The notes beneath the pieces are model-generated. The model did not search any database and had not been told where the DNA came from. It saw nothing but the letters and a program-made list of their open reading frames with translations. From contig CAJPFI010000015.1 of assembly GCA_905339295.1 (NCBI GenBank), forward strand, positions 1 to 51,470: a DNA stretch of 51,470 nt, written 5' to 3'. Below, piece after piece: positions 42,293 through 47,740 of the stretch (position 1 is its first letter; every line of letters starts with the position of its first letter). A program made the translations under genes and the position numbers. This DNA is from Burkholderiales bacterium. GTDB taxonomy: Bacteria; Pseudomonadota; Gammaproteobacteria; Burkholderiales; Casimicrobiaceae.

Positions 42293-43894
42293 ATGAGCAC
42301 GCCCACCTACGGCCCCGGCATCGAGATCACCGGCCGCATCACCCCCGAGTACGCGCAGATCCTGACGCCCGAGGCGGTCGCGTTCGCCGCCAGGCTGCAG
42401 CGCGCGTTCGGTCCGCGTCGCGGGGAGCTGATGGCGATGCGCGCGGCTCGGCAGACCGAGTTCGACGCCGGCAAGCTCCCGGATTTCCTCGCCGAGACGC
42501 GCTCGGTGCGCGAAGGCAGCTGGACCTGCGCGGCGGTGCCCGCGGACATCCGGGACCGCCGCGTCGAGATCACCGGCCCGGTCGACCGCAAGATGATCGT
42601 CAACGCGCTGAACTCCGGCGCGAGCGTCTTCATGGCGGACTTCGAGGACGCCAACACGCCGCGGTGGGACAACAATCTCCAGGGCCACATCAACCTGCGA
42701 GACGCGGTGCGCCGCAGGATCGAGTTCGTGTCGCCGGAAGGCAAGGCCTACCGGCTGGGCGAGAAGCTCGCCGTGCTGTTCGTGCGACCGCGCGGCTGGC
42801 ACCTGCCCGAGAAGCACGTGAGGGTCGACGGGCAGCCGATCTCCGGCGGCATCTTCGACTTCGCGCTCTACGTCTTCCACAACGCGAAGGAACTGGTCGC
42901 GCGGGGCTCGGGCCCGTACTTCTACCTGCCGAAGCTCGAGAGCCATCTCGAGGCGCGCCTGTGGAACGACATCTTCGTGATGGCCCAGGACACGCTGGGG
43001 ATCCCGCGCGGCACGATCAAGGCGACGGTGCTGATCGAGACGATCGTCGCGGCGTTCGAGATGGACGAGATCCTCCACGAGCTGCGCGAGCACTCGGCCG
43101 GGCTCAACGCGGGCCGCTGGGACTACATCTTCTCGTGCATCAAGAAGCTGCGCTCGAACCGCGACTTCTGTCTCGCCGACCGCGCGCTCGTCACGATGAC
43201 GACGCACTTCCTGAAGAGCTACGCGGAGCTCCTGATCAAGACCTGCCATCGCCGCGACACCCACGCGATGGGCGGGATGGCCGCGCAGATCCCGGTCAAG
43301 AACGACGAGAAGGCGAACGCCGAGGCGTTCGCGAAGGTGAAGGCCGACAAGGAGCGCGAGGCCACGTACGGCCACGACGGCACGTGGGTCGCGCATCCGG
43401 GCCTCGTGGCCGTCGCGAAGGAAGCGTTCGACCGGCTGATGCCGACGCCCAACCAGATCGCGACGAAGAAGCGCGAGGACGTGAAGGTCGGCGCGGCGGA
43501 CCTGCTCAGGTTCGAGCCCGAGCAGCCGATCACCGAGCGCGGCCTGCGCCTCAACATCAACGTCGCGATCCAGTACATCGGCGCGTGGCTCGCGGGGCAG
43601 GGCGCGGTGCCGATCTTCAACCTGATGGAGGACGCGGCGACCGCCGAGATCTCGCGCTCGCAGGTCTGGCAGTGGATCCGCTCGCCCAAAGGCAGGCTCG
43701 ACGACGGGCGCAAGGTGACGAAGGAGATGGTCGCCGCGATGATCCCCGAGGAGATGGTGAAGATCCGCGAGCACCTGGGCGCCGCGTTCGCGCAGGGCAA
43801 GTACGACGACGCGGCCGCGATCTTCGCCGACCTCGTCAACAACGACACGTTCGTCGAGTTCCTGACACTGCCGGCGTACGAGCGGATCGACTGA
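42293..43894 (+). CDS. aceB: Malate synthase A
   Basis: This 533-aa enzyme of the glyoxylate shunt condenses glyoxylate and acetyl-CoA into malate. The signature REHSAGLNAGRWDYIFS is at about 262-278, VFMADFEDANTPRWDN near 110-125, and MGGMAAQIPVKND near 325. Length matches the A form. ATG 42293 is preferred over the upstream in-frame frame, which runs through the operator. Isocitrate lyase is not in the window. Confidence 0.96.
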   Translation: MSTPTYGPGIEITGRITPEYAQILTPEAVAFAARLQRAFGPRRGELMAMRAARQTEFDAGKLPDFLAETRSVREGSWTCAAVPADIRDRRVEITGPVDRKMIVNALNSGASVFMADFEDANTPRWDNNLQGHINLRDAVRRRIEFVSPEGKAYRLGEKLAVLFVRPRGWHLPEKHVRVDGQPISGGIFDFALYVFHNAKELVARGSGPYFYLPKLESHLEARLWNDIFVMAQDTLGIPRGTIKATVLIETIVAAFEMDEILHELREHSAGLNAGRWDYIFSCIKKLRSNRDFCLADRALVTMTTHFLKSYAELLIKTCHRRDTHAMGGMAAQIPVKNDEKANAEAFAKVKADKEREATYGHDGTWVAHPGLVAVAKEAFDRLMPTPNQIATKKREDVKVGAADLLRFEPEQPITERGLRLNINVAIQYIGAWLAGQGAVPIFNLMEDAATAEISRSQVWQWIRSPKGRLDDGRKVTKEMVAAMIPEEMVKIREHLGAAFAQGKYDDAAAIFADLVNNDTFVEFLTLPAYERID

Positions 43895-44032
43895 CCGACC
43901 TGCGCCGGGCGCGACGGACGCCGCGCCCCGATGTCCCGTTCCGCGAGTCCGGTCGACGGCTCGCGGCGCGTCCGGCCGCCGTGCCCGGATCCGGCGTCGG
44001 GCCGGATCGTCAGGCACGCGGCGGGGACCCGT

Positions 44033-44062
44033 TTGACGCCGCCGCCGCGCCGCGCCGATACT
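44033..44062 (+). promoter_or_regulatory. Candidate promoter of suyAB operon
   Basis: TTGACG (44033-44038) and GATACT (44057-44062) are 18 nt apart, within the 218 nt between aceB and suyA. The predicted start near 44069 gives a leader of about 44 nt ending in an AGGAG ribosome site. No operator palindrome was noticed. Confidence 0.55.
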
Positions 44063-44112: not shown

Positions 44113-44394
44113 ATGATTCACTTCGTATTGCACGACGCGAACGACAGCGTGGCGGTCGTCGTCGTCGAGGGCGTGAAGGCCGGCATGGAGCTCGCCGGCT
44201 GGATCATGGACGAGGACCGGATGACGCGCGTGGTGGCGACGCAGGACATACCGATCGGGCACAAGGTCGCGCTGCGCGACATGGCCGTCGGCGACACCGT
44301 CGTCAAGTACGGCAGCGACATGGGCAAGGTCGTGAAGCCGATCGCCGCCGGCGAGCACGCCCACGTGCACAACATCAAGACCAAGCGTTGGTGA
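44113..44394 (+). CDS. suyA: (R)-sulfolactate sulfo-lyase alpha subunit (UxaA/SAF-type)
   Basis: This 93-aa SAF-domain protein is the small half of a split altronate-dehydratase-like lyase. It has [23 protein letters not shown] and the ending [14 protein letters not shown] typical of this family. With SuyB it should eliminate sulfite from (R)-sulfolactate to give pyruvate. The substrate is inferred from the operon (suyB, slcC and comC follow); on sequence alone altronate or another sugar acid remains possible. AGGAG precedes the ATG. Confidence 0.78.
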
Positions 44395-44500
44395 CGGCCA
44401 TCGACCGCTCGCGGCGAACGGCCGCCGCGACGGGCCGGACCATCGCCGCGGGCGCGCCGCGCGCGTCCTTCGACGCCCCGATCACGCAAGGAACACCGCG

Positions 44501-45676
44501 ATGAGCATCGTAGACAAGGGCACCACCTTCCTCGGCTACCGGCGCGAGAACGGCCGCGTGGGCATTCGCAACCACGTCGTCGTCCTGCCGCTCGACGACC
44601 TGTCCAACGCCGCCGCCGAGGCGGTCGCTCACAACATCAAGGGCACGCTGGCGATCCCGCATCCGTACGGGCGGCTGCAGTTCGGCGCGGACCTCGACCT
44701 CCATTTCCGCACGCTGATCGGCGCCGGCTGCAATCCCAACGTCGCGGCCGTGGTCGTGATCGGCATCGAGGACGGCTGGACGCAGCGCGTGGTCGACGGC
44801 ATCAGGGCCACCGGCAAGCCGGTGGCGGGCTTCGGCATCGAGCTGCACGGCGACCACGACACGATCATGCGCGCCAGCAAGGCGGCGCGCGAGTTCGTCC
44901 AGGGGGCGAGCGAGAAGCAGCGCGAGGCGTGCCCGATCCACGAGCTGTGGGTGTCGACCAAGTGCGGCGAGAGCGACACGACCAGCGGCTGCGGCGCCAA
45001 TCCCACGGTGGGTGACGCGTTCGACAAGCTGCATGCGCTGGGCAACTACCTTTGCTTCGGCGAGACGACCGAGCTGACCGGCGGCGAGCAGATCGTGGCC
45101 GCGCGCTGCGCGAACGACGCGGTGCGCGACCGCTTCATGTTCATGTTCGACCGCTACCAGGGCGTCATCGACCGCCACAAGACGAGCGACCTGTCCGACA
45201 GCCAGCCCACCAAGGGCAACATCGCCGGCGGCCTGACGACGATCGAGGAGAAGGCGCTCGGCAACATCCAGAAGATCGGCCGGAAGTGCACGGTCGACGG
45301 CGTGATCGACAAGGCCGAGATGCCCACGCATCCGGGCCTGTGGTTCATGGACTCGTCGTCCGCCGCGGCCGAGATGGTCACCCTGTGCGCAGCCAGCGGT
45401 TATGTCGTCCACTTCTTCCCCACCGGGCAGGGCAACGTGATCGGCAACCCGATCCTGCCGGTGATCAAGCTCTGCGCCAATCCGCGCACCGTGCGCACGA
45501 TGAGCGAGCACATCGACGTCGACGTGACCGGGCTCCTGCAGCGCGAGATCACGCTCGACCAGGCGGGCGACAGGCTGCTCGAATCCATGCTGCGCACCGC
45601 CAACGGACGCCTCACGGCCGCCGAGGCGCTGGGGCACCGCGAGTTCGTGCTGACGCGCCTGTACGAATCGGCATGA
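44501..45676 (+). CDS. suyB: (R)-sulfolactate sulfo-lyase beta subunit (UxaA C-terminal type)
   Basis: This 391-aa protein is the large half of the split lyase. It begins [21 protein letters not shown], the family opening, and has the conserved cysteines and glycines in GAGCNPNV and [20 protein letters not shown], with ELHGDHD between. Size and separation from the SAF subunit match SuyB, the Fe-dependent sulfolactate lyase that releases sulfite and pyruvate. UxaA in sugar-acid use is usually a fused protein of about 490 aa, which argues for SuyB here. Confidence 0.8.
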
Positions 45677-45815
45677 GCGCCGCGGGGCCGTCCCGGGACG
45701 CTCGCGCCCCCGGGGACGGCGCGCGCGGCGCGCGTGCGGAGGATCACGGCGCTTCGCTCCCTCCGGCGGGGATGCGCGACGTCCGCGCGGCGGCGAGCCG
45801 GGGGAAGGCTGTCCG

Positions 45816-46742
45816 GTGAGCCGGATCGTCGTCACCGAATTCATGGACGAGCGCGCGGTCGCGAGGCTGCGGTCCGGCCACGACGTGCGCTACGACCCGG
45901 GACTCGTCGACGACGCGCCGCGGCTGCGGACGGAGGCGGCCGCCGCCGACGCGATCGTGGTCCGCAACCGCACGCAGGTGCGCGGCGACCTGCTCGCCGC
46001 GCTCGCGCGCTGCCGGGTGGTCGGGCGCCTGGGCGTCGGGCTCGACAACATCGACGTGCCGGCCTGCGAGGCGCGCGGGATGAAGGTGATCCCGGCCACG
46101 GGCGCGAATGCGCTGTCGGTGGCCGAATACGTCGTCGGCAGCGCGATGCTGCTTCTGCGCGGCGCGTACCGGTCGACCTCGGCCGTGGCCGGCGGCGAGT
46201 GGCCGCGCGCCGCGCTGGCCGGCGGGCGCGAGATCGCCGGCAAGACGCTCGGGCTCGTCGGGTTCGGATCGATCGGCCGGCGCACCGCCGGACTCGCGCG
46301 CGCGGTCGGGATGGACGTGGCCGCGCACGACGCGATGATGGCCGCCGACCATCCGGCGTTCGCCGCCCACGGCGTGCGCTGCGTCTCGCTCGACGCGCTG
46401 GTCGCGAGCGCCGACGTCGTCAGCCTGCACGTGCCGCTGGTCGAGTCCACCCGGGGTCTGTTCGGCGCGGCGCGCATCGCGGCGATGAGAAAGGGCGCGA
46501 TCCTGGTCAATACGGCGCGCGGCGGACTCGTCGACGAGGTCGCCCTGGCGGCGGCACTTTCGAGCGGGCAACTCGGCGGCGCCGCGATCGACGTCTTCGC
46601 CGCCGAGCCGCTGCCCAGGGTGCCGCACTTCGAGGGCTGCCCGAACCTGCTGCTCACGCCGCACGTCGCCGGCGTCACCGCGGAAGCCAACGAGCGCGTG
46701 AGCTTCCTGATCGCCGACAAGGTGATGGAGGCGCTGCGATGA
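45816..46742 (+). CDS. slcC: (S)-sulfolactate dehydrogenase (D-2-hydroxyacid dehydrogenase family)
   Basis: This 308-aa NAD-dependent oxidoreductase has the dinucleotide motif GFGSIG at 149-154 and the catalytic triad Arg235 (NTARGG), Glu264 and His283 (TPHVAG). The N-terminus VVTEFMDE and VVRNRTQVRGDL near 48-59 fit SlcC-like proteins. It should oxidise (S)-sulfolactate to sulfopyruvate. The start is GTG. Its stop overlaps the next ATG (ATGA). Phosphoglycerate dehydrogenase is an alternative if taken alone. Confidence 0.78.
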   Translation: MSRIVVTEFMDERAVARLRSGHDVRYDPGLVDDAPRLRTEAAAADAIVVRNRTQVRGDLLAALARCRVVGRLGVGLDNIDVPACEARGMKVIPATGANALSVAEYVVGSAMLLLRGAYRSTSAVAGGEWPRAALAGGREIAGKTLGLVGFGSIGRRTAGLARAVGMDVAAHDAMMAADHPAFAAHGVRCVSLDALVASADVVSLHVPLVESTRGLFGAARIAAMRKGAILVNTARGGLVDEVALAAALSSGQLGGAAIDVFAAEPLPRVPHFEGCPNLLLTPHVAGVTAEANERVSFLIADKVMEALR

Positions 46743-47740
46743 AGGTCGCCGCCGCCGAGCTCGAGGCGCTGGTCGGCGCGCACCTCGAGCGCGCGGGCGC
46801 CCATGCCGCGATGGCCGCGTCGACCGCCGCCGCGCTCGTGCTCGCCGAAGCGCAGGGGCTCGGATCGCACGGCCTCGCGCGCGTGGGCCAGTACGCGGCG
46901 CACCTGCGCAACGGCCGCGTCGACGGGACGGCACGCGCGCGCGTCCTGCGCCGCAAGGGGGGCGCGATCGTCGTCGATGCCGGCGGGGGCCTCGCCTTTC
47001 CCGCGTGCGGGCTCGCGGTGCGCGAAGCGATCGCCGCCGCGCGGGAACTGGGCGTCGCCTTTGCCGGCGTCGTGCGCAGCCACCATTGCGGCGTCGTCGT
47101 CGACCACCTGCGCGCGGTGGGTGCCGCAGGAATGGTCGGGCTGGGATTCGCCAATTCGCCGGCCGCGATGCCTGCGGCGGGCGGCAGGCACGCGATCTTC
47201 GGCACCAACCCGGTGGCCGCGATCTTTCCGCGCCGCGCGGGCGACGCGCTGATGGTCGACCTCAGCCTCTCCGAGGTCGCGCGCGGCAAGGTGATGGTCG
47301 CCGCGCGCGAGCGCAAGCCCATCCCGCCCGGGTGGGCACTCGACGCCGACGGCAACCCGACCACGGATGCAGCGGCGGCGCTGGCGGGCTCGATGTTGCC
47401 GATCGGGGCGGTGTCCTCTCCGAAGGGCGCGATGCTCGCGCTCGTCGTGGAGCTGCTCGTCACCGCGCTGATCGGCGGCCGCTACGGCTTCGAGGCGTCG
47501 AGCTTCTTCGTCGACGAAGGCGACCGGCCGGGGATCGGGCAGGCCTTCGTCGTCGTCGATCCCGGCGCGCTCGCCGGCGCGGACCGCTACTTCGACCGCG
47601 TCGAGGTCCTGGTGGCCGAGATGCTGAAGGACGACGGCGTGCGGCTGCCCGGTGCGCGGCGCGAGGCGCTGCGACGCCGGGCCGAGGCCGAGGGCATCGA
47701 GGTGCCGGACGCATTGATCGCCGGTTGGCGCGCGGCGTGA
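46739..47740 (+). CDS. comC: (R)-sulfolactate dehydrogenase (malate/L-lactate dehydrogenase family)
   Basis: This 333-aa Ldh_2-family oxidoreductase has GLGSHGLARVGQY near 41-52 with the conserved histidine, RSHHCGVV near 113-120 with the catalytic histidine, and the NAD(P)-binding GTNPVAAIFPR. ComC reduces sulfopyruvate to (R)-sulfolactate. Coupled with SlcC it would convert the S enantiomer to the R form that SuyAB cleaves. The overlap with slcC supports joint function. Confidence 0.8.
   Translation: MKVAAAELEALVGAHLERAGAHAAMAASTAAALVLAEAQGLGSHGLARVGQYAAHLRNGRVDGTARARVLRRKGGAIVVDAGGGLAFPACGLAVREAIAAARELGVAFAGVVRSHHCGVVVDHLRAVGAAGMVGLGFANSPAAMPAAGGRHAIFGTNPVAAIFPRRAGDALMVDLSLSEVARGKVMVAARERKPIPPGWALDADGNPTTDAAAALAGSMLPIGAVSSPKGAMLALVVELLVTALIGGRYGFEASSFFVDEGDRPGIGQAFVVVDPGALAGADRYFDRVEVLVAEMLKDDGVRLPGARREALRRRAEAEGIEVPDALIAGWRAA

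Follow-up and report, generated by a model that had tools for sequence, protein, structure and literature searches.

The known sulfolactate pathway of Chromohalobacter salexigens, Paracoccus and Taurinivorans joins a two-subunit sulfo-lyase, SuyAB, to two dehydrogenases, SlcC and ComC. Recombinant SuyAB of Desulfovibrio strain DF1 yields pyruvate and sulfite from sulfolactate (PMC6278857, in extract). SlcC and ComC have been proposed to act as a two-enzyme racemase in C. salexigens, and the SuyAB neighbourhoods of most sequenced Paracoccus hold both (PMC9594981, in extract), while in Taurinivorans muris the expression of the slcC-comC and suyAB clusters rises on sulfolactate (PMC10507020, in extract). 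A related system is the hpsRNOUPsuyAB cluster of Cupriavidus pinatubonensis for dihydroxypropanesulfonate (PMC11382572, in extract). Here we analyze a stretch of 51,470 nucleotides (nt) from a Burkholderiales bacterium of the family Casimicrobiaceae (assembly GCA_905339295.1, contig CAJPFI010000015.1), hereafter the window, in which an initial annotation made from the sequence alone had placed a complete operon for the racemization and cleavage of sulfolactate. Our findings indicate that these genes are very probably a suyA-suyB-slcC-comC cassette of the known pathway that has lost its GntR regulator gene and the accompanying palindrome, with the promoter core kept. The window thus holds the same four enzymes as the described loci and differs from them in having no importer, SuyZ/TauE or GntR alongside and in the loss of the operator site. 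By analogy with published work on homologues, SuyAB would eliminate sulfite from (R)-sulfolactate, leaving pyruvate, and SlcC and ComC, with opposite stereochemistry, would interconvert (S)- and (R)-sulfolactate through sulfopyruvate, so that both enantiomers may be used as a carbon or sulfur source.

The assignment is carried foremost by the large subunit. In a tree of SuyB sequences, the window and 41 loci chosen out of 120 form one clade of 42 rows (support 100/100) apart from eight outgroups, which include UxaA, GarD, a split look-alike and the genome's own second UxaA-type protein. Among the SuyB rows are those of C. pinatubonensis HN-2, Paracoccus versutus and Desulfovibrio sp. MES5 (the last 77% identical to the window protein, identities in the surveys of suyB loci being computed over matched stretches and not whole genes), which are not the exact strains assayed in print. 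The window protein carries the shared residue at all 144 columns that are invariant in the 41 other rows, and 23 of these residues are absent from every outgroup. They include Ser152, Lys154 and Glu157, in place of which all eight outgroups present Gly, Glu or Gln, and Gly (ECGGSD/QCGGSD); 30 residues are common to all SuyB rows and the outgroups. The affinity to galactarate or altronate dehydratases that the initial annotation had weighed as an alternative was not found: the protein lies outside these enzymes in the tree, lacks the CGGSD-type residues and scores 142.6 bits against a cut-off of 730.85 for the NCBIfam galactarate dehydratase model, although GarD is the only solved chain that it matches at E 0.01. 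UxaA and GarD share their Pfam domains with SuyB, and the window differs from them by its separate small subunit, its SuyB-specific residues and its position in the tree. Judged by clade and residues, and without the signature of an altronate/galactarate dehydratase, the predicted large subunit is SuyB.

The same separation is seen in a ranking of plasmid records by tblastn, in which 13 of 316 match the window SuyB at 84-64% identity and the other 303 at 40% and below. The upper group includes Cupriavidus pinatubonensis, Methylobacterium, Sinorhizobium mexicanum, Paracoccus and Rhodococcus. The copy at 84% lies on the plasmid of C. pinatubonensis HN-2, in the order LacI, hpsN, hpsO, major facilitator superfamily (MFS) transporter, sugar-alcohol-type dehydrogenase, suyA, suyB; this gene run is the hpsRNOUPsuyAB cluster of the literature. 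In two Cupriavidus-like loci (G330 and G268), slcC and comC follow suyAB, giving hpsN-hpsO-MFS-hpsP-suyA-suyB-slcC-comC-TctC with a GntR gene behind, and their slcC and comC are 60-62% and 59-60% identical to those of the window. The clade, the residues and this linkage to sulfonate pathways together support the naming of SuyAB, SlcC and ComC.

Gene order and domains, on which the sulfolactate assignment had originally been based, are insufficient alone. A plasmid of Variovorax sp. SRS16 (L187:2724-8276) carries a GntR gene, a hydroxyacid dehydrogenase, small and large UxaA subunits, TctC and an Ldh_2 protein within 6 kb, and the Pfam domains of its large subunit and two dehydrogenases are those of the window. 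It thus shares the gene kinds of the window, with GntR and TctC in addition, but is only 38%, 37% and 33% identical to SuyB, SlcC and ComC, and its large subunit has the dehydratase residues ECGGSD. The existence of this set means that gene content and Pfam domains are not specific for a sulfo-lyase and fit both kinds of operon, whereas residues and phylogeny point to SuyAB in the window. The SuyB residues may therefore serve as a criterion to separate sulfo-lyases from dehydratase-type operons of the same gene content and Pfam domains.

For the two dehydrogenases, the best evidence for the predicted names is gene position. Among 113 distinct loci out of 120, 81 offered at least 6 kb of downstream DNA (32 were dropped for short flanks); slcC and comC both lie downstream of suyB on the same strand within about 6 kb in 43 of these, immediately adjacent in 17, and are not so placed in the other 38. 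Of the 30 slcC genes beside suyAB that were compared, 28 are 51-78% identical to the window SlcC, and the remaining two, from a Chloroflexota-labelled locus and a Rhodococcus locus, 46% and 40%. Identity to outsiders is 37% for the Variovorax look-alike, 36% for Escherichia coli SerA and 28% for GhrB. Phosphoglycerate dehydrogenase, the affinity that had been raised against SlcC, was rejected on this contrast with SerA and on a score of 253 bits versus the 454 bits of the NCBIfam model, which spans 525 positions to the 308 residues of SlcC. Read directly, the sequence of SlcC holds NTARG, DVFAAEP, TPHVAG and GxGxxG, which we take to be the catalytic motifs of the family (Arg in the first, Glu in the second and His in the third, with the GxGxxG motif), and its N-terminal residues are the same as in the orthologue of locus L045. 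Trees of SlcC and ComC were built for 34 chosen loci, 30 slcC and 33 comC rows being both long and near enough (L054 has the sequence of L112). They broadly repeat the SuyB grouping, with the window beside G003 and G007, two genomes of the same genus, and Leptothrix and Piscinibacter, and the window ComC falls within a clade of 25 rows (95/99).

The four-frame layout, the gene order and the overlap of the last two frames described initially were all borne out (Table 1), as was the split of the UxaA-type lyase into a small SAF-type protein and, after it, a large UxaA-type protein. All four frames are intact on one strand, the last two sharing the 4 nt ATGA. Pfam domains comprise GD_AH_second (115 bits) and GD_AH_C (283 bits) on SuyB, both above their cut-offs, 2-Hacid_dh and 2-Hacid_dh_C on SlcC, and Ldh_2 on ComC. 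SuyA matched no Pfam family at E 1e-3; it is called SAF-type on the strength of matches to the galactarate dehydratase model, in the N-terminal part, and to solved chains of altronate hydrolase and galactarate dehydratase. Its identity to both the G003 and the G007 copy is 89%, and a suyA match lies near suyB in all 80 named loci. C. salexigens does not occur among the 80 loci listed out of 592 confirmed in a contig scan centred on the SuyB of Litchfieldella (Halomonadaceae). None of the four proteins scores above the cut-off of an NCBIfam model, so family names are not directly readable from these models. A single terminator-like match was found in the cassette, inside suyB, a count equal to that expected from shuffles. 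The compact same-strand order also occurs in G003, G007 and loci of Leptothrix, Piscinibacter and Polaromonas.

Table 1. Coordinates of the cassette and its upstream features, numbered from the first nucleotide of the window.
Feature	Position	Strand	Description
suyA	44113..44394	+	93 aa; small SAF-type subunit of predicted (R)-sulfolactate sulfo-lyase
suyB	44501..45676	+	391 aa; large catalytic subunit of predicted (R)-sulfolactate sulfo-lyase
slcC	45816..46742	+	308 aa, GTG start; 2-hydroxyacid dehydrogenase of (S)-sulfolactate dehydrogenase type
comC	46739..47740	+	333 aa; Ldh_2 protein of (R)-sulfolactate dehydrogenase type
aceB (malate synthase), upstream neighbour	42293..43894	+	Three malate synthase Pfam domains; outside the pathway
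Promoter-like site TTGACG-18-GATACT	44033..44062	+	50 nt before suyA; 1 found versus 0.1 expected in shuffles
Place of relatives' palindrome TCATNNNNATGA (putative GntR operator)	44016..44027	+	Absent here; 5 of 8 fixed positions differ in the best register

The upstream region is where the window departs from its relatives. Across 110 distinct loci with 300 nt of upstream DNA, 66 have a GntR/UTRA gene divergent from suyA, and 44 have no divergent GntR match within 900 nt. In relatives with the divergent gene, the palindrome TCATN4ATGA touches the -35 box (e.g., L105, L123 and L113). The exact core TCATNNNNATGA is present in 33 of the 66, compared with none of 66 control stretches of suyB and 0.2% of shuffles, which keep base composition only. 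With up to two mismatches allowed, and within 9 nt 5' of the -35 TTGA, it is found in 56 of the 66, compared with none of the 66 coding stretches, 1.7% of shuffles and 6 of the 44 loci without a divergent GntR gene; the other 10 show more than two mismatches at the -35 position. A fuller form of the site reads approximately CAAGTCAT-N4-ATGACTTG-N-TTGAC, with all 16 fixed positions exact in 3 of the 66. The palindrome CAAGTCAT-N4-ATGACTTG is likely the operator of the suy regulator, and since it sits at the -35 box, the GntR protein may be a repressor. Among open-licence PMC papers, we found none that joins sulfolactate, GntR and an operator.

In the window, the -35 and -10 boxes are in register with those of L105 and of L044, a locus of G003, and similarity to the upstream DNA of L044 starts at the -35 box. 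The exact palindrome core occurs nowhere in the window, aceB occupies the place where relatives have the divergent GntR gene, and the best match in the genome to the regulator of G007 is 29% identical. G001, G003 and G007, the nearest genomes within the genus, whose SuyB proteins are 91-92% identical to that of the window (for G001 over 267 residues, the gene being cut by a contig end), have kept both the GntR gene and the exact core. It thus appears that the GntR gene and the palindrome have been lost with the promoter core retained, a pattern that appears to be new here. On the simplest reading, one deletion or transposition would have taken the regulator gene and the operator together and left the promoter. 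The suy genes are probably now expressed without GntR control, or together with the upstream malate synthase gene. The regulator-operator pair of relatives would be a site at which sulfolactate use is controlled; in the window, both members of the pair look to have been deleted naturally.

Several observations weigh against the reading of a regulator-less sulfolactate cassette. In the SuyB tree the outgroups are flagged as long branches, the single clade of SlcC is weakly supported (78/51), and the 34 comC rows do not stand on one side of any branch versus three outgroups. The best NCBIfam match of ComC is L-sulfolactate dehydrogenase, at 174.6 bits versus a 500-bit cut-off; the comC beside the hps-suy genes of G330 likewise stays under it at 208.3 bits, and the cut-off thus seems unfit for the bacterial type of ComC. 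The best solved chain for ComC is piperideine-2-carboxylate reductase, at 149 bits, followed by L-sulfolactate dehydrogenase at 129 bits, and the comparisons of SlcC and ComC were with genes beside suyAB, not with the purified enzymes of C. salexigens. The exact palindrome core is also found in 10 of the 44 loci without an adjacent GntR gene, including L110 and two loci of the 2,3-dihydroxypropane-1-sulfonate (DHPS) type, L033 and L088, so a neighbouring GntR gene is not needed for the site to be present; moreover, the loss of the regulator rests on one assembly of this genome. Finally, searches of the genome (4.03 Mb in 60 contigs, listed as 98% complete) provided little sign of supply or disposal. 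An HpsN orthologue was not found, the best match (36%) being probably histidinol dehydrogenase. The SsuA-type importer encoded between suyB and slcC in some relatives had no match in the genome, in a search without a same-genome positive control, and neither did a SorA-type sulfite dehydrogenase queried from L059, again without a positive control and with SoeABC, Xsc and CuyA not searched for. With the queries used, no orthologue was found of the compared importers, a sulfite exporter, a SorA-type sulfite dehydrogenase, HpsN or the sulfosugar aldolase, and flux through the pathway is therefore not evident.

Three candidate routes of supply were rejected on these searches: a DHPS operon, for want of an HpsN orthologue; sulfosugar supply through an HpcH aldolase as in G003 (best genome match 36%); and a suy-linked succinate dehydrogenase (L110 flavoprotein query, best match 37%). 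The initial annotation had listed a transporter, a regulator and a sulfite exporter or dehydrogenase as missing from the window, which is borne out as far as tested, with searches for TauE, the suy-type GntR, PF03601 and TctC placing nothing on the contig (C15). Its description of the operon as complete stands for the catalytic core and fails for the surroundings, which have no adjacent regulator, importer or sulfite/sulfate exporter on that contig. Elsewhere in the genome there are 31 TctC-type matches (the best 42% identical to C. pinatubonensis TctC, none singled out), four proteins over the TauE family cut-off and one PF03601 protein (G000:C13:160826-161668). The TauE-family and PF03601 proteins could not be recognised as the ones linked to suy: none of the four matches Methylobacterium TauE at E 1e-5, and the PF03601 protein shows about 31% identity, in a partial match, to three of six SuyZ queries.

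These absences raise the question of whether the cassette is a decaying remnant, with intact enzymes in a pathway that no longer serves growth, its regulator, importer and sulfite disposal gone. The lost regulator and operator, the lack of orthologues of the compared importers and exporters, and intergenic gaps of 106 and 139 nt in place of the 16-17 and 25-40 nt of G003 and G007 would all fit such decay. Nevertheless, the four frames are open, their ratios of nonsynonymous to synonymous change (pN/pS) are 0.16-0.39 against G003 and G007, and the promoter core is kept; some of the TctC-type and TauE-family proteins encoded elsewhere may serve; and an Acidobacteria genome with a suyAB, slcC and comC set and without suyR or SlcHFG is on record (PMC6018796, in extract). 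We consider decay unlikely on this balance. An assembly error at the join of aceB and suyA, concealing a real locus with the usual GntR gene, is less probable still. The break is a single point, at the -35 box, and the window's genome alone, among the four in the genus whose SuyB is 91-100% identical, lacks the GntR gene, which would suit a misjoin; however, the absence of any GntR orthologue in a nearly complete assembly and a distance of more than 7 kb from the break to the nearest contig end argue against it. It is highly improbable that the genes encode a split UxaA-type dehydratase for some other hydroxy acid with two dehydrogenases racemizing that acid, an architecture that the Variovorax set shows to be unspecific, given that the window large subunit lies inside the SuyB clade with SuyB residues instead of ECGGSD and that hps genes adjoin close relatives of its gene.

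In the genus of the window suyB is widespread, with a match of at least 80% identity in 17 of 21 other genomes, which puts C3-sulfonate cleavage into a genus of betaproteobacteria. Across the phylum, SuyB at E 1e-140 is found in 16 of 397 evenly drawn genomes, the window's among them. The window SuyB groups with G003, G007, Leptothrix and another Burkholderiales genome (95/95), and these three members of the genus join Leptothrix, Piscinibacter and Polaromonas in a 12-row set (100/95). Two other members of the genus, G010 and G015, fall in a different part of the tree (100/99), and their placement apart from congeners suggests that the cassette has probably moved between lineages. A nitroreductase gene and aceB would be the landmarks for its place of insertion.

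Genes that may serve other sulfonates are found beside suyAB in relatives. In several loci (L102:1-6635, L110:9690-17844, L138, L139, L148, L165 of the cultured Massilia horti, and the plasmid L034:125-3337), suyAB stands in line with succinate-dehydrogenase-like genes and genes for a two-part fumarase/tartrate-dehydratase-like enzyme. The dehydrogenase-like complex comprises an FeS subunit, a flavoprotein and, in L059, an Sdh_cyt membrane subunit, and a TctC gene is often present. FumA and FumB both match in 13 of the 81 distinct suyB loci, and one relative with such genes beside suyAB has a SuyB 92% identical to that of the window. These genes would perhaps fit a route from sulfosuccinate through sulfofumarate, sulfomalate and sulfopyruvate to sulfolactate. 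Sulfosuccinate is a surfactant head group, and the genes of these relatives point to a possible C4-sulfonate route. Sulfosuccinate occurs together with desulfonation terms in two papers, one of them a review of surfactant degradation (PMC5445686); among open-licence PMC papers, we found none joining sulfolactate with sulfosuccinate, or with succinate dehydrogenase, fumarase and a sulfonate.

A sulfosugar-like arrangement is present in G003 (L044:1-6285), where genes for an HpcH/HpaI aldolase, a sugar ATP-binding cassette (ABC) transporter and a Gfo/Idh/MocA protein lie directly beside GntR-suyAB-slcC-comC. It resembles that of Sinorhizobium mexicanum (L038), which is listed among sulfofucose candidates (PMC12421959). 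Conceivably, suyAB-slcC-comC is a terminal hub for DHPS (hps), sulfosugar (HpcH aldolase and sugar ABC transporter) and C4-sulfonate modules, and in the window this hub is by itself, cut from repressor and operator. We offer this tentatively, as an idea more doubtful than probable; if true, the activity of the window's hub would be constitutive, whatever the origin of its sulfolactate.

Two further arrangements were seen in relatives. In seven loci at the level of genus or family (L047, L048, L053, L054, L056, L168 and L176), suyB is followed by a pyridoxal phosphate (PLP)-dependent enzyme whose nearest match, below cut-off, is the beta-hydroxyaspartate dehydratase BhcB, and most of them also encode, in part or in full, an SsuA/TauA-type ABC transporter and a glyoxalase-like protein; these loci may be where cysteate or a different amino sulfonate enters. 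In L059 (11267-12262), a gene resembling SorA/SoxC-type sulfite dehydrogenases, below curated cut-offs, directly follows suyB and is perhaps a sulfite disposal step linked to suyAB.

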